DNA from: Microbacterium rhizosphaerae | GTDB lineage: Bacteria; Actinomycetota; Actinomycetes; Actinomycetales; Microbacteriaceae | Direction: 5' to 3' | DNA length: 64,000 nt | Assembly (NCBI RefSeq): GCF_034120055.1 | Contig: NZ_CP139368.1 | Span: forward strand, 2,356,001 to 2,420,000 | Part shown: positions 15,930 through 64,000 of the stretch, piece by piece | How positions within the stretch are numbered: the first letter of the stretch is position 1 | Layout: each line of letters begins with the position of its first letter | Program-made: the position numbers and the translations under genes | Notes under the pieces: generated by a model | Told to the model about the DNA's origin: nothing | Databases searched by the model: none | Seen by the model: the letters and a program-made list of their open reading frames with translations, nothing else

Positions 15930-17093
15930 ATGACGGTGCCCTTCGCGCCATCCGCGCGCTCGACGGTGGGGATCGAGTGGGAGATCATGCTCGCCGACGG
16001 CGAGACAGGTGCTCTGGTTCCGCACGCCCCCGGGATCCTCAGCGCCCTCGCGGAGGAGACGGCCCACGAGCGGTTCAGCGTCACGGGAGAGCTGCTGACG
16101 AACACCGTGGAGGTGACGAGCGGCGTCGGCGACACGGTCGCCACCGCCGTCGACGACATCGCGGACGCGATCGCAGCCGTCCGTCGCGTGACGGACGGGC
16201 TCGGCGTGGAGCTGCTGTGCGCGGGCAGCCACCCCTTCGCCCAGTGGTACGAGCAGGGCGTCACCGATAAGACGCGCTATCACAAGCTCATCGAGCGGAC
16301 CCAGTGGTGGGGCCGCAACATGATGATCTGGGGCATCCACGTGCATGTCGGCGTCGACGACGTGCAGAAGGTGTTCCCGATCATGAACGCCCTTGCGATG
16401 TACCTGCCGCACCTTCAGGCGCTGTCGGCATCCAGCCCGTTCTGGGCCGGCGAGCGCACGGGCTATGCGTCGAACCGCGCGCTCGTCTTCCAGCAGCTGC
16501 CCACCGCGGGTCTGCCCTGGCCGTTGCAGTCCTGGGCGGAGTTCGAGGGATATCTGGATGACATGCAGCGCACGGGTGTGATGGCGGACGCGACGGAGGT
16601 GCGCTGGGACATCCGACCCGCGCCGCGCTGGGGCACGATCGAGGTCCGCGCGTGCGACGGCATGTCGACGCTGCCGGAGCTCGCGGCCGTCGCCGCGCTC
16701 ACCCAGGTGCTCGTGGAGCACTTCTCGCGCGAGCTCGACGAGGGCGCGACCCTCCCGTCCCTGCAGCCCTGGTATCTGCGGGAGAACAAGTGGCGCGCGG
16801 CCCGGTACGGCTTGGATGCCCGGGTGATCGTGGATGCGATCGGCACACAGCGCTCCGTCCGCGATCACCTCGCCGAGACGATGGAGGACCTCGCCGACAT
16901 CGCGATCGAGCTCAAGTGCTCCCGCGAGTTCGCCGGACTCCAGACGATCACGACCCAGGGTGCGAGCTACGCCCGCCAGACCATGGTCGCCGATGCCTCC
17001 GAGGGCGATCTGCGCGCCGTGGTCCAGCACCTCATCGGGGAGTTCCGCGAGGGTCCGACCCTGCGCGCGCACCTCGCCGCCCTCCGCCACTGA
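15930..17093 (+). CDS. Carboxylate-amine ligase, glutamate-cysteine ligase type 2 (YbdK) family
   Basis: ATP-grasp-like GCS2/YbdK protein of 387 residues. Visible landmarks are [11 protein letters not shown] at the N-terminus (metal/ATP Glu pair), the His-rich [12 protein letters not shown] motif, and the late [12 protein letters not shown] strand. Family members make gamma-glutamyl bonds, but most YbdK proteins have only weak glutamate-cysteine ligase activity and an unknown true substrate. Actinobacteria use mycothiol rather than glutathione, so a glutathione role is unlikely. The ATG at 15930 is preferred over one 48 nt upstream because it puts the conserved strand at the N-terminus; no clear ribosome site is seen and the mRNA may be leaderless. 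Confidence 0.88.
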
Positions 17094-17169
17094 GCGCGAG
17101 CCATCCTCCTCCTACGCATCCGCCATGGATGCCCGGCCGGATATGGCCGTGTCGCCGTCGAGGCGTACC

Positions 17170-17931
17170 GTGGAGCGAGTGCTGCTCCCCCGCCGTGCCC
17201 GTACCGCCGCCGTCCTCGCCGCCCTCGCCGTCGTCCTCACCGGGTGCGCGGCCACCGCCACCGCGAGCTCACCGACGGGCACACCCGCCGAGGCGGCGCA
17301 GGCGACAGCGACCGCGACGCCGGCTCCGTCCTCCTCGGCGACGGCCGCACCGGCACCGGCTTCCGGCGCGCAGCCGCAGGTCGTGGTCACCATCGGGGAC
17401 TCGATCATGGCCGGTCTCGGCCTCGACGAGCAGTACGCCTGGCCGTCCCTGCTGGCGACGGGAACGCCGACGAAGCTCGTCAACCTCGCGTGCAGCGGCG
17501 CCGGCTTCATCGCGATCGGCGGATGCGGCACGAACTACGCCGGCCTCATCGCGCAGGCCGCGCAGGCCCAGCCGACGCTCGTCATCGTGGAGTCGTCGAG
17601 CAACGACATCGGGCAGACGGATGCCGCGATCGATGAGGCGACGCAGGCCACGATGGCCGCGCTGCGCTCCGCCGTGCCCCACGCCACCATCGTCGCGCTC
17701 AGTACGGTCTGGAACGACGAGGACTCCTGGCCGGAGGAGGTGACGTCCTCGTCGACCGCGATCGAGCGCGCGGCGGCCGTCCAGCACGCCCTCTACCTCG
17801 ATCTCGGCCAGCCGCTCGAGGGACACCCGGAATGGATGCAGTCCGACGACGTGCATCCGACGATCGACGGTCAGCGGGTCCTCGCCGAGTCGGTGCGCCG
17901 CGCGCTGGCCGGCGTCGGCCTCGCTCTCTGA
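17170..17931 (+). CDS. SGNH/GDSL-family hydrolase lipoprotein
   Basis: Predicted secreted lipoprotein hydrolase (esterase or acyl/acetyl hydrolase) of 253 residues. From the GTG at 17170 the signal peptide has a basic n-region, a hydrophobic core and lipobox LTGC with C26 as the lipidated residue. An Ala/Thr/Pro/Ser-rich spacer follows to about residue 68. Catalytic blocks are IGDSIMAG (Ser78), SSSND (block III) and DDVHPT (Asp and His near the end). GAGG lies 6 nt before this GTG; the in-frame ATG at 17125 would give an unusually long n-region and has no ribosome site. The substrate cannot be inferred. Confidence 0.85.
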   Translation: MERVLLPRRARTAAVLAALAVVLTGCAATATASSPTGTPAEAAQATATATPAPSSSATAAPAPASGAQPQVVVTIGDSIMAGLGLDEQYAWPSLLATGTPTKLVNLACSGAGFIAIGGCGTNYAGLIAQAAQAQPTLVIVESSSNDIGQTDAAIDEATQATMAALRSAVPHATIVALSTVWNDEDSWPEEVTSSSTAIERAAAVQHALYLDLGQPLEGHPEWMQSDDVHPTIDGQRVLAESVRRALAGVGLAL

Positions 17932-18000
17932 CGCGCGGGACGGGCTCTCGGCGGCTGCCGCCTCGGTCGGCTCGGGCCGGGCTCTGGCGCGCCGGATGCC

Positions 18001-58808: not shown

Positions 58809-59444
58809 TCAGACCCGGCGATCGCGTTCGATCTCGAACACGGCGGCCTGCGTGCGGTGCTCGAATCCCAGCTTCGACAGCAGGGACGACACGTAGTTCT
58901 TCACGGTCTTCTCCGCCAGGCCGAGATGCTCGCCGATCTGACGGTTCGTGAGCCCGTCGGCGATGAGCGCCAGGATCTGACGCTCACGGAGACTGAGCGA
59001 TCCGAAGCGCGGATCCTCGTCGGGAGCCGCCCGCAGCAGCTGCGTCGCCTGCCGCTCCGCCGCCGGATGCAGCAGGCGCTTTCCGGATGCCACGGCTCGC
59101 ACGGCCTGGGTGAGCTCATCGCCGCGAACGGCCTTGAGGAGGTAACCGGACGCGTCCGCGAGGACCGCCGCGAACACCGCCTCGTCGTCGTCGTACGCCG
59201 TGAGGATCAGGCAGCGGACGGACGGGAACTCCTGGCGGATCTGACGGCACACGTCGATGCCGCTCCCGTCGGGCAGGTGCACGTCGAGGATGGCGACGTC
59301 GGGAGTCGTCGCGGTGATCCGGGTCATCGCATCCCGGCACGTCGCGGCCTCGCCGACGACCGTCATGTCCGCCTGACCGTCGAGCAGCTCCGAGATGCCG
59401 CGTCGCACGATCTCATGATCGTCCACCAGGAACACCGTGATCAT
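58809..59444 (-). CDS. NarL/DevR-type response regulator
   Basis: 211 residues. The receiver domain has acidic D8-D9, phospho-acceptor D54 in AILDVHLPDG, T82 and K104, a complete active set. The LuxR-type helix-turn-helix ends GLAEKTVKNYVSSLLSKLGF, then EHRTQAAVFE, closely resembling mycobacterial DevR/DosR. No histidine kinase gene is next to it in this window. Downstream of the flavodoxin and stress-protein genes on the same strand; a palindrome lies 14 nt before its start. It is the natural candidate to bind the palindromes at 60487-60540 and 63056-63130. Confidence 0.92.
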   Translation of the reverse strand: MITVFLVDDHEIVRRGISELLDGQADMTVVGEAATCRDAMTRITATTPDVAILDVHLPDGSGIDVCRQIRQEFPSVRCLILTAYDDDEAVFAAVLADASGYLLKAVRGDELTQAVRAVASGKRLLHPAAERQATQLLRAAPDEDPRFGSLSLRERQILALIADGLTNRQIGEHLGLAEKTVKNYVSSLLSKLGFEHRTQAAVFEIERDRRV

Positions 59445-59457
59445 GGGAGGACCTTAC

Positions 59458-59473
59458 CGGTCCTCGGGGACCG
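59458..59473. repeat. Palindrome between the flavodoxin and response regulator genes
   Basis: CGGTCC-TCGG-GGACCG is a perfect 6-bp inverted repeat with a 4-nt centre. It has the same 5-4-5 spacing as the DevR-like boxes nearby but with the arms in reverse sense. It may be a small hairpin that limits read-through, or an operator. Confidence 0.35.
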
Positions 59474-59490
59474 CTCACCCGATTCGCTGT

Positions 59491-59997
59491 TCACTCGCCC
59501 GTGATCACCCTTCCGACGCCCTCCCCCCATCGGCGTGCACGCTCCAGTTCGCCCTCCACGAGCGGACCCTCATAGCCCTCGACGAGGAAGCTCTGCGGCT
59601 CGAGCACGCGAAAGCCTCGCTTCCTGGCATAGCGCGTCGCACTGTGCGAGGCCGCGCCGGGCATGAGCGGCATGTCGACCTTCGTGTCGAAGGCCACGAA
59701 GACGACGGGATGCTCCGGGTCGGGCAGAGCTTGCATCCATTCCCGGATGCCGATCGGGACGTCGCCCTCGGCGGCGCCCCGGCCGGCCGCCTCTCTCCGG
59801 GTGGAGAGCCGTGACATCGAGAACGCGTGCGTCGGCCCGCCCACCACGAGCGCGGCCACGTCCGCGGAAAGCTCGCGAGGCGCTTCCGCGACATCCTCGA
59901 CGGTGACCTCGGCGACACCGGACATCCCGTCCGCGACCGCCTCGGCGATCTGCTTCGTGTTGCCGAACATCGACTCGAACACCAGCCGGATCCTCAT
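59491..59997 (-). CDS. Flavodoxin-fold protein
   Basis: 168 residues. The FMN phosphate loop is ESMFGNTKQIAEAVADGM, near the start after strand RIRLVF. VVGGPTHAFSMSR is the second FMN-contact loop, and VAFDTKVDMP follows. Probably a low-potential electron carrier or menaquinone-linked flavodoxin under low oxygen. The start overlaps the stop of the upstream universal stress protein (ATGA), so the two are made together. Confidence 0.88.
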   Translation of the reverse strand: MRIRLVFESMFGNTKQIAEAVADGMSGVAEVTVEDVAEAPRELSADVAALVVGGPTHAFSMSRLSTRREAAGRGAAEGDVPIGIREWMQALPDPEHPVVFVAFDTKVDMPLMPGAASHSATRYARKRGFRVLEPQSFLVEGYEGPLVEGELERARRWGEGVGRVITGE

Positions 59998-60452
59998 GGC
60001 GTGTCCTCGGATGCGCCGACGGCACGCCGCTCATGCACGATGAGCACCGGGCAGTGCGCGTGTTCGGCGCACGCGGCACTCACGGATCCGAGCAGGAGTC
60101 CCGCGAAGCCGCCGTGTCCCCTGCTGCCGAGGACGAGCATCGCACTGTCGGCACTGAGATCGATCAGCGTGCGCGACGGCGGGCCGGCGATGACGTGACG
60201 GGTCAGCTCGGGGGGATCGTCGGCGAACGCTTCCGCGATCGCCTGGTCGAGGATGTCCGCCGCGTCTTGCTGCGGCGACCAGTCCGTCGCGAACTCGAAC
60301 TCGGTGAAGGCCGGGTAATACCACGTGGTCACGGCCTCGAGGGGGGCGTCGAACGCCTCCGCCATCCGTGCGGCGTACCGCAGTGCGTGGATCGAGGACG
60401 CAGACCCGTCCACGCCGACGAGGATCCGGTCGGAGTCGGTGAGCTCTTCCAT
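59994..60452 (-). CDS. Universal stress protein (single UspA domain)
   Basis: 152 residues. The fold starts RILVGVDGSASSIHALRYAA. The ATP-binding motif G-x2-G-x9-G-S is complete in GSRGHGGFAGLLLGSVS, and PVLIVHE closes the sheet. The start at 60452 puts the first strand near the N-terminus with GAGGGTGGG upstream; an in-frame ATG at 60548 lacks support and would run into the operator region. A DevR-like box lies 35 nt upstream. Confidence 0.9.
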   Translation of the reverse strand: MEELTDSDRILVGVDGSASSIHALRYAARMAEAFDAPLEAVTTWYYPAFTEFEFATDWSPQQDAADILDQAIAEAFADDPPELTRHVIAGPPSRTLIDLSADSAMLVLGSRGHGGFAGLLLGSVSAACAEHAHCPVLIVHERRAVGASEDTP

Positions 60453-60486
60453 GCGCCCACCCTCACGCCGACGGCGACCGATGGAC

Positions 60487-60500
60487 GGGACGAAAGTCAC
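60487..60500 (-). promoter_or_regulatory. DevR/DosR-like box 1 (faces the universal stress protein gene)
   Basis: On the minus strand: GTGAC-TTTC-GTCCC, one mismatch from a perfect palindrome and close to the DosR core GGGACTWWAGTCCC. It ends 35 nt before the 60452 start and begins 40 bp from box 2. Confidence 0.55.
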
Positions 60501-60526
60501 ATCGGCCGCGATGCGCATCCGTCGAC

Positions 60527-60540
60527 GGGACTTTCGTCCC
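60527..60540 (+). promoter_or_regulatory. DevR/DosR-like box 2 (faces the PPOX gene)
   Basis: GGGAC-TTTC-GTCCC, perfect 5+5 arms, oriented toward the gene at 60609 and ending 68 nt before it. Confidence 0.62.
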
Positions 60541-60608
60541 GCGACCACGCAACAGCGCGCCGTTGACTGATCCGAGGCTTCGGCAGGAACGACAGGAAGG
60601 ACGCCCGG

Positions 60609-61181
60609 ATGTCTGCATCCGCGTATTCAGCCGATTCCCGCGGTCAAGAGGTGGAGACGCTGGGTGTCGAGGAGTGCTGGCGACTCCTGCGCCTGGCGAC
60701 GATCGGCCGCCTCGCCGTCTCCGGTCTGGATGGCGGCCTCGACATCGTCCCCCTCAACTACCTCACCTACGAGCGCTGCGTCTACTTCCGCACCGCTCCC
60801 GGCAGCAAGCTCGGAAAGCTTCAGGCGCACCCCGAGGTCGCCTTCGAGATCGACGGACAGGACGACCGGCGCCGCTGGAGCGTGGTCGTCCACGGCACCG
60901 CGCACCTCGTGCTGGACCCCGCCGAGATCGAGCGGTCCGGCATCGACTGGCTCATCTCCTGGAATCCGACGGCGAAGTCGCACTTCGTCCGCATCGACCC
61001 GGATGCCGTCACCGGCCGCCGCTTCCCCAAGCACTACCACGCCTCGTCTCTCGCCGAGCCGATGACGCCGGCCGCGGATGCGGCGCCGGACGACGACGCG
61101 CGCGAGTTCACTTCGCACGACGGCGTCCTCCCGAAGCCCTGGCCCATTCCGCATCGCACGCCGACGACGCCGGGCGACTGA
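60609..61181 (+). CDS. Pyridoxamine 5'-phosphate oxidase-fold flavin/F420-type protein
   Basis: 190 residues with the split-barrel PPOX fold: EECWRLLRLATIGRLAVSG, DIVPLNYLTYERCVYFRTAPGSK in pieces, HPEVAFEIDG and WSVVVHGTAHL. Relatives bind FMN or F420 and include proteins in mycobacterial and Streptomyces hypoxia regulons. A Pro/Asp-rich tail of about 40 residues has no known fold. AGGAAGG precedes the ATG. The stop overlaps the alcohol dehydrogenase start (TGATG). Confidence 0.88.
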   Translation: MSASAYSADSRGQEVETLGVEECWRLLRLATIGRLAVSGLDGGLDIVPLNYLTYERCVYFRTAPGSKLGKLQAHPEVAFEIDGQDDRRRWSVVVHGTAHLVLDPAEIERSGIDWLISWNPTAKSHFVRIDPDAVTGRRFPKHYHASSLAEPMTPAADAAPDDDAREFTSHDGVLPKPWPIPHRTPTTPGD

Positions 61182-62215
61182 TGGACGAGTCGGCCGCGGC
61201 ATCGCCCCCGCGCTCGGCGACGGGGCGGATGGCGGCGTGGGTCACCGACGCGGCTGCGGGATCCCTGACGCTCGGCGCGCGCCCGGTACCGGTGCCCCGA
61301 GCCGACGAGGTCCTCGTGCGCGTCGAGGCATGCGGCGTGTGCCGCACCGATCTCCACGTCATCGACCAGGAGCTTCCGGTGCACCGGCCGGGCGTCATCC
61401 CCGGTCATCAGGTCGTCGGCATCGTCGTCGATGCCGGTGCGCGCGTCTCGCAGCTGGCGCGCGGCGACCGCGTGGGGATCGCATGGCTGCGACGCACGTG
61501 CGGCTCGTGCCGCTGGTGCCGTGAGGGCCGGGAGAACCTGTGCCCGTCCTCGTCGTACACCGGCTGGGATGCCGACGGCGGCTTCGCGCAGTTCACGACC
61601 GTGCCGGAGGCCTTCGCCTACGCCCTGCCCGCCGACGCGGACGCGGCCCGCACCGCGCCGCTGCTGTGCGCCGGCATCATCGGGTACCGGGCGCTCTCCC
61701 GCACCGGGCTCCCGCCCGGCGGTCGTCTGGGCATCTACGGCTTCGGTTCGAGTGCGCACATCACGGCGCAGCTCGCCCGGGCGGCCGGGGCGCAGATCTA
61801 CGCGATGTCGCGGGCTGAGCAGGACCGCACGCTGGCGCGGCAGCTCGGCGCGGTCTTCGTCGGGGATGCGACGGCCGAGCCGCCCGATCCGCTCGATGCG
61901 GCGATCGTCTTCGCGCCGGCGGGCGAGCTCGTCCCCGTGGCGCTGCGAGCGGTCACCCGGGGAGGAACCGTCGTGCTGGCCGGCATCCACATGTCCGACA
62001 TTCCGGCGATGGACTACACGGAGGAGCTCTTCTACGAGCGCGACCTGCGCACCGTGACGGCGAACACGCGCGCGGACGGGGCCGCACTGCTGCGCCTCGC
62101 CCGCAACCTCGACGTCGGCCCGACGGTCACCGGGTACTCGTTCGCGCGGGCCGGGGAGGCCGTCTCCGCGCTGCGCGACGGGCGCGCATCCGGCTCGCTC
62201 GTCATCGTCATGTGA
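61181..62215 (+). CDS. Zinc-dependent alcohol dehydrogenase
   Basis: 344-residue MDR enzyme. The catalytic zinc site has C51 in EACGVCRTDLHV and H76 in PGHQVVG. The structural zinc site is C107, C110, C113 and C121. The NAD(P) motif is GIYGFGSSAHITAQLARAAG. The form is close to the AdhX/AdhA-like proteins that scavenge NADH by reducing aldehydes at low oxygen. Co-translated with the PPOX protein and under the same DevR-like box; ends 6 nt from the convergent stress protein gene. Confidence 0.92.
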   Translation: MDESAAASPPRSATGRMAAWVTDAAAGSLTLGARPVPVPRADEVLVRVEACGVCRTDLHVIDQELPVHRPGVIPGHQVVGIVVDAGARVSQLARGDRVGIAWLRRTCGSCRWCREGRENLCPSSSYTGWDADGGFAQFTTVPEAFAYALPADADAARTAPLLCAGIIGYRALSRTGLPPGGRLGIYGFGSSAHITAQLARAAGAQIYAMSRAEQDRTLARQLGAVFVGDATAEPPDPLDAAIVFAPAGELVPVALRAVTRGGTVVLAGIHMSDIPAMDYTEELFYERDLRTVTANTRADGAALLRLARNLDVGPTVTGYSFARAGEAVSALRDGRASGSLVIVM

Positions 62216-62221
62216 TGCGAC

Positions 62222-62989
62222 TCATTCGACCCACGACGGCTGCCGGTCCCCCGCGCGCGGGCGCGTGATCAGGATCGGCGCATTCGCGTTGAACAGCACA
62301 TCCAGTGCGATGTCACCCGGGCCCCCGCTCCGGCGGTCGGATTGCGCCAGTCCGGGATCGATCACGAGCAGGGTCGCCGCCTGGGCCGCGTCGAGAAGCG
62401 CCGTCGCGGTATCGGCCGTCCGCGCTCGCGTACGCACCGTGAGCTGCGGCCATCCGTCGTGGATGACGCGCTCCGCGACCTTGACGGCGTCATCATCGCT
62501 ATCAGAGCCGCCGCGACGTCCTGCGGATGAGATCACCTGGACGGCCTCGCCCCGTCGCGCAGCCTCCGTGGCAGCCATCGCGGCCGACGCCGCGGCGGTC
62601 TCGGCACCGTCGACGCCCAGAACGACGCCCGAGCGGAACCGGAGATCGACATCCGGGATCACGACGACCGGACACGGCGCCAAGGCCACGATCCGCACCC
62701 CGGTGAATCCGAACACACGTCCGTGCGCGAAGCCCGTCTTGCCCGTGCCGATGACGAGTACATCGTCGGGCCCGGCGAACGCCGCCAGCGTCTCGGGAAC
62801 CTCGCCGGTCAGATGGACCGCCTCCGACGGTTCGCGACCCGGAGGGCGATCGTCCGTCCCCCGATCGTCGGCGAGGACGTGCACGGCGACGCACTGCACG
62901 CCTTCCGCGTCGGCGCGCGTACGCGCCCATTCCCATGCGAGCCGGGCGGGGTGGGAATCGTCGAAGGCCACCACATATCGCCGCACCAT
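62222..62989 (-). CDS. Tandem universal stress protein (two Usp domains)
   Basis: 255 residues. Domain 1 (about 1-125) starts RRYVVAFDDSHPARLAWEWA and has a degenerate ATP loop (GTGKTGFAHGRVFGFTG). Domain 2 (about 130-255) starts SGVVLGVDGAETAAASAAMA and ends NANAPILITRPR. GGGGGGAG precedes ATG 62989. A DevR-like box lies 66 nt upstream. In mycobacteria tandem Usp proteins are among the main DosR targets. Confidence 0.88.
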   Translation of the reverse strand: MVRRYVVAFDDSHPARLAWEWARTRADAEGVQCVAVHVLADDRGTDDRPPGREPSEAVHLTGEVPETLAAFAGPDDVLVIGTGKTGFAHGRVFGFTGVRIVALAPCPVVVIPDVDLRFRSGVVLGVDGAETAAASAAMAATEAARRGEAVQVISSAGRRGGSDSDDDAVKVAERVIHDGWPQLTVRTRARTADTATALLDAAQAATLLVIDPGLAQSDRRSGGPGDIALDVLFNANAPILITRPRAGDRQPSWVE

Positions 62990-63055
62990 GGGACTCCCCC
63001 CGATCCACTTCGCCGTCCGGAACATCATCGTGCGCGACGCCGGGCCGCCCTCGCA

Positions 63056-63069
63056 GGGCCGAAAGTCCC
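63056..63069 (-). promoter_or_regulatory. DevR/DosR-like box 3 (faces the tandem stress protein gene)
   Basis: On the minus strand: GGGAC-TTTC-GGCCC, one mismatch from palindromic. It ends 66 nt before the 62989 start. Confidence 0.55.
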
Positions 63070-63116
63070 GTCGACCGCGACGACGTCGAAGCCGCACCCG
63101 CGTCACGCGTCCGGAC

Positions 63117-63130
63117 AGGACCTTCGTCCC
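63117..63130 (+). promoter_or_regulatory. DevR/DosR-like box 4 (faces the small membrane protein and cytochrome b genes)
   Basis: AGGAC-CTTC-GTCCC followed by GAA, matching the CCCSAA flank of the DosR consensus. It ends 50 nt before ATG 63181. TACGGT at 63153-63158, 22 nt further on, is a plausible -10 box. Confidence 0.55.
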
Positions 63131-63180
63131 GAACCGAGAGTCTGAGGCCTCCTACGGTGGCGACGAAAGAGGAGGCCAAT

Positions 63181-63330
63181 ATGGTCATCGTCGCCAGCGC
63201 GCCGGGAATCTACCTCGGCTGGGGCCCATACACCATCCAGCTCGGCAATCTCATCGTCATCGTGACCATGCTCCTGCTGTTCGCCCTGGCGCTGCTGCTG
63301 CCCTTCCCGAAGCCGAGGCGCCGGCGATGA
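63181..63330 (+). CDS. Small single-pass membrane protein, 49 residues
   Basis: MVIVASAPGIYLGWGPYTIQ leads into a single hydrophobic helix (LIVIVTMLLLFALALLLPF) and a basic end KPRRRR, which places the C-terminus in the cytoplasm. GAGGAGG lies upstream at good spacing. The stop overlaps the cytochrome b gene start by ATGA, so it is co-translated and may be a small subunit or assembly factor of that cytochrome. No family recognised. Confidence 0.75.
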   Translation: MVIVASAPGIYLGWGPYTIQLGNLIVIVTMLLLFALALLLPFPKPRRRR

Positions 63331-64000
63331 GCGCGCGGCAGTCTCAGTCCGAGCGGTCGCCGGAGCGCGGCGTATGGCCGTCGGAACCGCCCGCTCAGCC
63401 GGAGGACGAGATCTACACGTGGACCGGGCGCGCGCGCCGCTGGCTTCTGAAGCGTCTCCCCCCGGACAAGCTGCTCCCCCAGGACCAGCCGAGCTACGTC
63501 GCGTCGTGGATCTACGTCTTCGGGATGGCGTCGCTGACGTCCCTGGCGGTCGTGATCATCTCCGGATTCGTACTCGCCCTCAATGGACCGGCCTGGTACC
63601 ACCTGTCGAGCCTCGGGAGATTCACCAACAGCACGCATCTGTGGAGCGTCGAGCTGTTCTTCCTCTTCATGGTCGTGCACCTCTGGGGCAAGTACTGGAT
63701 GGCGGCCTGGCGCGGCGGCCGGGTGCTCACCTGGATCACCGGTGTGATCGCGTTCGCGGTCTCGATCGCCGCGGCGTTCACCGGCTACCTCCTGCAGACG
63801 AACTTCGACTCCCAGTGGATCGCCTTCGAGGCCAAGGACGCCCTCAACGCCGTCGGCATCGGCGCGTGGTTCAATGTGGCCGACCTCGGGCAGATGTTCA
63901 CGTGGCACATCGTGCTGCTGCCGCTCGGCGTGGGCGCCGTCGTCGCGCTCCACGTGCTGCTCGTGCGCATGCACGGCGTCGTGCCCCCCATCGATGCGAA
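63327..64000 (+). CDS. Cytochrome b N-terminal-domain protein, partial (continues past right edge)
   Basis: About 224 residues visible, starting MSARQSQSERSPERGVWPSE. A soluble N-terminus of about 60 residues is followed by four membrane segments of a cytochrome b/b6 core. Heme His pairs: THLWSVELFFLFMVVHLWGK gives H-x13-H, and WHIVLLPLGVGAVVALHVLL gives H-x14-H. The conserved GYLLQ (GYxLPW-like) follows the third segment. It should accept electrons from menaquinol. No Rieske or cytochrome c gene is visible; the 3' end lies outside. Confidence 0.88.
   Translation, partial: MSARQSQSERSPERGVWPSEPPAQPEDEIYTWTGRARRWLLKRLPPDKLLPQDQPSYVASWIYVFGMASLTSLAVVIISGFVLALNGPAWYHLSSLGRFTNSTHLWSVELFFLFMVVHLWGKYWMAAWRGGRVLTWITGVIAFAVSIAAAFTGYLLQTNFDSQWIAFEAKDALNAVGIGAWFNVADLGQMFTWHIVLLPLGVGAVVALHVLLVRMHGVVPPIDA

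Follow-up and report, generated by a model that had tools for sequence, protein, structure and literature searches.

The OsdR/OsdK system of Streptomyces coelicolor combines a DevR-type regulator with a GAF kinase, and its boxes lie in divergent promoters (PMC5069765; this and the other papers are cited from excerpts). Its island contains genes for universal stress proteins (Usp), alcohol dehydrogenase, a pyridoxamine phosphate oxidase-like protein (PPOX) and a pyruvate phosphate dikinase (PPDK)-type enzyme. In the mycobacterial DevR/DosR-DosS-DosT system, the published stringent DosR consensus is GGGACTTNNGNCCCT (PMC6448022). A DosR site lies 34 bp upstream of the DrrS start and overlaps the -35 element (PMC5360333). 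Multiple sites are reported in the narK2-Rv1738 divergent promoter (cited in PMC5360333). Residues K182, N183 and K179 are core DNA contacts of DevR/DosR (PMC5999986), and DosS H149 and Y171 are the proximal heme His and the distal Tyr (PMC4082495). PolS and PolR of Microlunatus phosphovorus are DevS and DevR homologues in another actinobacterium (PMC6754071). Here we describe 14-bp palindromic boxes and a DevR-like regulator in Microbacterium rhizosphaerae. The window is the whole stretch analysed, 64,000 nucleotides at positions 2356001-2420000 of a single 4.06-Mb contig.

By its testable features, as far as sequence can tell, this system is a DevR/DosR/OsdR-type regulon, and it would work like one. 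We consider it about 88% probable that the window holds the left end of a DevR/DosR-type regulon island of approximately 48 kb, in which a heme-GAF kinase would act on DevR and DevR on the boxes. The initial annotation had proposed such a regulon. The regulator match, the fit to the consensus, and the presence of an island with a DosS/DosT-like kinase beyond the window support it.

The closest described case is OsdR of Streptomyces, with nearly identical boxes at some promoters, and the locus shares the features of OsdR/OsdK listed above (PMC5069765). Some Streptomyces sites are AGGGACCTTCGGCCCC, one base from island site 2449881; AGGGACCTTCGGCCCC contains a form that recurs in related genera. 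The Streptomyces system differs in its consensus, AGGGCCGATCGGCCCT, and in having osdR and osdK in one operon, whereas devR and the kinase gene devS are apart here. Its regulon also includes the nitrate reductase nar2 (PMC5069765); none was seen by eye in the island stretch, for which no targeted search was made. With the mycobacterial system the locus shares the GGGACTTNNGNCCCT consensus and a predicted site over the -35 (PMC6448022, PMC5360333). It also shares the GAF-A heme His and Tyr, the DNA-contact residues K179, K182 and N183, and Usp and Hsp20 genes (PMC4082495, PMC5999986). Multiple sites in a divergent promoter, as reported for narK2-Rv1738, are a further likeness. Unlike in mycobacteria, devR here follows the usp and flavodoxin-like genes in last place, 24.9 kb from devS. 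A further difference is that the island has three flavodoxin-like genes and pairs a microprotein gene with one for a half cytochrome b.

The window contains four boxes:
60487..60500, minus strand: box A, GTGACTTTCGTCCC, from the pattern scan of the window
60527..60540, plus strand: box B, GGGACTTTCGTCCC, faces the PPOX gene, lacks a -10 hexamer at 21-23 nt
63056..63069, minus strand: box C, GGGACTTTCGGCCC, matches the published stringent DosR consensus
63117..63130, plus strand: box D, AGGACCTTCGTCCC, from the pattern scans of the window and genome

The initial annotation had placed four sites at 60487, 60527, 63056 and 63117, and all four were found there. In each pair one minus and one plus site face their respective genes, as claimed. 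The claimed form, RGGAC-YTTC-GTCCC, is exact at 60527 and 63117, with a single arm mismatch at each of 60487 and 63056. The boxes were said to lie 35-68 nt from the starts, and the gaps measured to the start codons chosen by the analyst are 34 (A), 68 (B), 66 (C) and 50 (D) nt.

The accompanying hand estimate of about 0.3 chance matches per 64 kb fails for the arms alone. The pattern GGACNNNNGTCC was found 4 times (3.38 expected), and GGGACNNNNGTCCC with at most one mismatch was found 8 times (7.04 expected). The arms occur about as often as expected, so the bare palindrome is not unusual in the window. What stands of the chance argument is the full 14-mer with its spacer, which is enriched. 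With at most two mismatches, GGGACTTTCGTCCC has 4 matches against 0.73 expected, and 1 of 100 shuffles reaches 4. All four matches lie within the two divergent intergenic regions.

A genome-wide motif scan, which the initial annotation had proposed, found that matches cluster in the island and are not evenly spread over the genome. The pattern RGGACYTTSGTCCC, loosened after the island sites had been seen, has seven exact matches, all in 2416527-2460014, a 43-kb stretch that starts in the window. With at most one mismatch it has 36 matches at 34 distinct places, and the reversed pattern has 6 matches. Seventeen of the 34 places fall in 48.4 kb, which is 1.2% of the genome. As a held-out check, the window-derived RGGACYTTCGTCCC has three exact matches outside the window (2426766, 2448636 and 2460001), all no more than 41 kb downstream of the window end. 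By simple proportion, with a 45-kb stretch, the chance of this clustering is approximately 1.4e-6.

The claimed likeness to the DosR core also held up, and the boxes fit GGGACTTNNGNCCCT better than GGGACTWWAGTCCC (PMC6448022). We scanned with GGGACTTNNGNCCC, the 14-mer core of GGGACTTNNGNCCCT with the last T dropped, as an outside standard independent of the window sequence. Of its 7 genome matches, 4 lie in the island, 2 of them within the window; reversing the pattern gives 2 matches. Boxes B and C fit GGGACTTNNGNCCC, A deviates at one position and D at two. In the 80 kb covered around the island, 24 box-like places have at most three mismatches. Four of them, each with three mismatches (2422530, 2445310, 2445640 and 2479121), were excluded from the distance count. 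All 20 retained island sites precede an analyst-chosen start codon by 42-152 bp.

Three of the window boxes are followed by a predicted -10 hexamer:
60459..60464, minus strand: predicted -10 hexamer (NANNNT), 22 nt past box A
63027..63032, minus strand: predicted -10 hexamer, 23 nt past box C
63153..63158, plus strand: predicted -10 hexamer TACGGT, 22 nt past box D

At 16 of 19 island boxes, NANNNT begins 21-23 nt beyond the box on the gene side, against 3 of 19 on the other side and a background of about 5% per site. The count covers 19 of the 20 sites, with 2429351 excluded as the second box of one promoter. This rule was noticed on the same island sites, and it was therefore tested in other loci. 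In ten neighbourhoods from related genomes, described below, NANNNT lies forward of 29 of 42 boxes and backward of 13 (4.1 expected per side). Among 80 cytochrome b loci with 46 distinct boxes, it lies forward of 22 and backward of 15 (4.6 expected per side).

This spacing would place the box centre at approximately -42 and the box edge about 34 nt upstream of the expected start, over the -35. The predicted distance, which rests on the predicted -10s, agrees with that of the DosR site at DrrS (PMC5360333). Where the box centre is 42 bp from the start codon (usp1, the DUF805 protein, the metallo-hydrolase and the PEP-utilising enzyme), leaderless messages are expected. The transcription start for usp1 is predicted at or beside its ATG (60452). 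The predicted starts for usp2 and for the microprotein-cytochrome b pair are at about 63020 on the minus strand and about 63165, respectively.

The gene-facing orientation is true for part of the wider set. Sites with a YTTC core face the gene in 10 of 11 cases. Of the six sites with a YTTG core, five (2425455, 2426625, 2429351, 2440231 and 2442084) have the opposite orientation relative to the closest start codon, and the sixth (2432608) is ambiguous. These are small numbers, and the split was seen after the fact. The YTTG-core sites rule out strict gene-facing orientation as a rule, and orientation is a tendency. The firmer rule is NANNNT at 21-23 nt on the gene side. Its forward bias accounts for the earlier impression that boxes face their genes.

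The boxes also track DevR across the family. The sample contained 60 genomes, one per genus, with our genome included. Genomes with a DevR match above 200 bits were counted as DevR positive, whereas hits scoring 140-155 bits were assigned to other regulators. DevR is present in 23 of the 60 and DevS (E <=1e-60) in 21, all DevR positive. Exact GGGACYTTSGKCCC occurs in 15 of the 23 DevR-positive genomes and in 2 of the 37 others (Fisher 8.7e-7). Without our own genome the counts are 14/22 and 2/37 (Fisher 2.0e-6). One genome with only devR and devS fragments (G009) was counted as DevR positive; otherwise the counts are 14/22 and 3/38 (Fisher 7e-6). Reversed GGGACYTTSGKCCC occurs in 4 of the 23 and 12 of the 37. 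The genomes are related, so these counts are not independent events.

Ten devR/devS neighbourhoods were picked by the analyst from 44 other DevR-positive genomes, by DevR similarity and presence of the cytochrome pair. Together they span 196 kb and contain 42 boxes with at most one mismatch, against 1 reversed and 2 scrambled-spacer matches. They share many of the same gene kinds, with the order shuffled. The control in our own genome gave 0 boxes in 100 kb, and 2 in 120 kb once the stretch with 551627 and 553344 was added.

The proposed regulator is encoded near the boxes:
58809..59444, minus strand: devR-like response regulator, 211 aa, with receiver and LuxR/NarL helix-turn-helix (HTH) domains (Pfam Response_reg, GerE)

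Pfam and the solved structures bear out the claim of a DevR-like regulator near the boxes. Its best solved-structure match is M. tuberculosis DevR (3c3w, E 1.3e-64), and the next is VraR (1.4e-41). It keeps D54, which we take to be the phospho-acceptor, as well as K104, K179, K182 and N183. No DevR equivalog was among the 25 best of 100 NCBIfam matches, where the best was MadR, far below its cut-off. In NCBIfam, no family was above cut-off for the regulator, the kinase, the microprotein or the half cytochrome.

A two-GAF histidine kinase resembling DosS/DosT is encoded beyond the window end (L020:206-1963), 24.9 kb from devR. The best match of its GAF-A domain is 2vzw (5.5e-42), which is labelled a probable histidine kinase and is presumably the DosT domain. 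Named DevS chains follow from 8.6e-39. The kinase has counterparts of DosS H149 and Y171: the His is the second one in HHPPM, and the Tyr is that in GNLYL. They are 22 residues apart, the same spacing as in DosS. By the residues that it keeps, it is the putative cognate heme-GAF kinase. The genome contains a single DevS (E <=1e-60) and a single DevR (E <=1e-40), and both are open frames.

From these features we infer the following circuit. The heme-GAF kinase, encoded 25 kb away, would lose oxygen, or bind NO or CO. It would then phosphorylate the DevR of 58809-59444, with phosphotransfer between separated partners. Dimers of phosphorylated DevR would bind the 14-bp boxes, about 42 bp upstream of the transcription start and over the -35. 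Bound DevR would recruit RNA polymerase to promoters with a weak -10. Boxes A and B would serve usp1-flavodoxin-devR and PPOX-alcohol dehydrogenase, and boxes C and D would serve usp2 and microprotein-cytochrome b. The position of devR downstream of usp1 would make the circuit self-amplifying.

Several findings weigh against this regulon reading. The strict box form is missing from 8 of the 23 DevR-positive family genomes. There are 17 more places with at most one mismatch outside the island, some of them inside mechanically called frames. By eye, most genes in the final 15 kb of the island stretch, past about 2450400, seem unrelated (ABC transport, for instance), and just two boxes lie beyond that point (2460001 and 2464861). 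Start codons were picked from open frames by the analyst, which favours neat distances. Box B, the box of the third flavodoxin-like gene and the devS box have no -10 at 21-23 nt; box B may thus be a secondary site of the usp1 promoter. Here devR and devS are 24.9 kb apart, compared with no more than about 120 bp in 19 of 20 other DevS-positive family genomes. PolR, called 76% identical to DevR, is reported to bind GTTCACn5GTTCaC (PMC6754071).

At ten of the 17 outside places, a -10-like hexamer lies 21-23 nt from the box in one or both directions. Two box-like sites, 551627 and 553344, flank a phosphoribosyltransferase-like gene (named by eye) far from the island. This gene is a possible distant regulon member. 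Three more (2777219, 2780401 and 2782289), also outside the island, cluster in about 5 kb at an ABC-transporter-like operon, and two of them have a -10-like hexamer at 22-23 nt.

The separation of devR from devS bears on the strongest alternative, a decaying or rewired circuit in which another kinase phosphorylates DevR or DevR is active unphosphorylated. We regard it as unlikely, with some weight left to it. The devS gene is 25 kb off, there is no second devR, and the devS box lacks the usual -10. The own devR groups (support 0.977) with DevRs of G095, G061, G073, G064 and G060 whose genes do not form an operon-like array with devS. A weak node (0.544) joins it to four of these five. The tree contains 50 of 52 rows, with the second copy of G082 and G105 left out. 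In G060, G061 and G073, one devR is directly behind devS and another is 1.5-2.3 kb off. The sole devR of G064 is 2.2 kb from devS, and in G095 the sole devR and devS diverge with 0.2 kb between them. The two G009 matches, both partial, are 0.7 kb apart. In the simplest reading, a second DevR would have arisen in this clade and the devS-adjacent copy would later have been lost in our lineage. Against decay, devR and devS are both open frames and each is the only one of its kind in the genome. Moreover, DevS and DevR are jointly present or absent in 59 of 59 genus genomes, own included, with both in the same 23. The adjacency of regulator and kinase is not found here. Adjacency is usual without being required: DosT of M. 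tuberculosis is unlinked as well.

A second alternative is less probable still. The boxes might be bound by another NarL/LuxR-type regulator of this genome, or DevR might respond not to oxygen but to, for example, redox state or phosphate. The genome has 19 LuxR-type HTH matches, devR and devS are separated, and the close DevR relative PolR is tied to phosphate genes, a target set that, like its reported site, differs from that proposed here (PMC6754071). Opposed to this, the boxes track DevR and surround devR/devS in relatives, the regulator keeps its DNA-contact residues, and the kinase keeps the heme His and Tyr. The direct-repeat target of PolR is unlike the DevR palindrome and is hard to reconcile with the box conservation seen here (PMC6754071).

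That the boxes are chance GC-rich palindromes would suit the arms, which alone are not enriched in the window, but the genome clustering with its held-out matches, the full-14-mer enrichment, the outside consensus scan, the conservation and counts in relatives, and the fixed -10 spacing contradict it and leave it next to no probability.

Other window genes of the proposed DevR/DosR-type island are as follows:
59491..59997, minus strand: flavodoxin-like protein, 168 aa, first of three (weak Pfam Flavodoxin_1 match, 24.8 bits vs a cut-off of 25)
59994..60452, minus strand: universal stress protein usp1 (Pfam Usp, 2.3e-30)
60609..61181, plus strand: PPOX (Pfam Pyridox_ox_2, 2.4e-26)
61181..62215, plus strand: zinc alcohol dehydrogenase family protein (Pfam ADH_N; NCBIfam TIGR02822 above cut-off)
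62222..62989, minus strand: usp2, a longer Usp, 255 aa (Pfam Usp, 4.4e-9 for the whole protein; start chosen by the analyst)

These matches agree with the gene kinds named in the initial annotation. Usp, PPOX, alcohol dehydrogenase and cytochrome b were identified by Pfam, and the flavodoxin-like protein is just below the Pfam cut-off. The usp1 gene overlaps the flavodoxin gene by 4 nt, and 46 nt separate the flavodoxin gene from devR. It is likely the first gene of usp1-flavodoxin-devR.

Beyond the window, Pfam identified an erythromycin-esterase-family protein, a phosphoribosyltransferase, a DUF805 protein, two BON-domain proteins and a GyrI-like protein. It also identified two more flavodoxin-like proteins, two release-factor-like baeRF proteins, Hsp20 and two P-type ATPases. 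The island encodes an AMP-binding (acyl-CoA synthetase-type) enzyme, an ABC1-type kinase and a beta-CASP metallo-hydrolase. It encodes subunits of a 2-oxoacid dehydrogenase (transketolase-type and lipoyl acyltransferase) and a PPDK/PEP-utilising enzyme, and it has a second protein each of the PPOX and zinc alcohol dehydrogenase kinds. The core gene content of such regulons (several Usp, Hsp20, PPOX and alcohol dehydrogenase) is present; nitroreductase and nitrate reductase were not searched for. The three flavodoxin-like paralogues (59491-59997 in the window, L009:14553-15101 and L020:9207-9773) each lie in a box-led run or directly behind a box. A divergent baeRF pair (L009:15599-16561 and 16890-17981) has boxes between its genes. 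Rv2629 of the DosR regulon is a baeRF-type protein.

Box D precedes a microprotein gene, whose stop overlaps the start of a half cytochrome b (ATGA):
63181..63330, plus strand: 49-aa membrane microprotein, without a Pfam or NCBIfam family
63327..64000, plus strand, continuing to genome position 2420055: stand-alone N-terminal half of cytochrome b, 242 aa (Pfam Cytochrom_B_N_2, 1.8e-14)

Among solved structures, the half cytochrome matches chains of cytochrome b6 and b with E-values no better than 2e-9. Its top-listed structure match, 8pjs, was rejected as a spurious repeat match. It keeps all four b-heme histidines without the other half of cytochrome b. These four heme-ligand-type His (104, 118, 194 and 209) do not vary across an alignment of 17 sequences, which includes one protein twice. 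The closest named relatives of both proteins are from Microbacterium sp. B2969.

In the 60-genome family sample the half cytochrome is present in 5 genomes, all DevR positive, and the microprotein is upstream in 5/5. A perfect RGGACYTTSGKCCC box lies upstream of the pair in 3 of the 5; in one of these three (G055) the pair is about 860 kb from devR. A wider survey covered the best 80 of 431 named loci. A microprotein-like frame was found in 64 of the 80 by a loose pattern (the one at L102 looks false) and in 63 by tblastn. A box within about 500 bp upstream was exact in 11 loci and had at most one mismatch in 17; the reversed pattern gave 0 and 1. Another regulon-type gene was in the fetched flank of 24 loci. 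No box with at most one mismatch was found in the Arthrobacter-named loci among these best 80 of 431. Either the pair is not under DevR control everywhere, or these loci have a different box. Leifsonia, Cryobacterium, Arthrobacter and Sinomonas-type genera all retain the pair, and several have DevR boxes upstream of it. None of the open-licence literature matches listed contains the phrase 'cytochrome b N-terminal domain'.

We tentatively propose a role for this pair, which we hold to be possible and rather less than even in likelihood. The DevR circuit may drive a two-part membrane redox unit, made of the single-helix microprotein and the translationally coupled half cytochrome b. It may move electrons across the membrane at low oxygen, and its soluble partners may be the flavodoxin-like proteins of the island.

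Among the matches listed from open-licence literature, no title concerned DevR in Microbacteriaceae. The regulon reading would extend a dormancy-type DevR circuit to a Microbacterium-like bacterium. The grammar of a box, 21-23 nt and NANNNT could help to identify members of the regulon in GC-rich actinobacteria from sequence alone. Genomes with a regulator detached from its kinase are natural cases for asking how partner specificity is kept. The conserved, unnamed microprotein-cytochrome b pair is a candidate part of hypoxic electron transfer.

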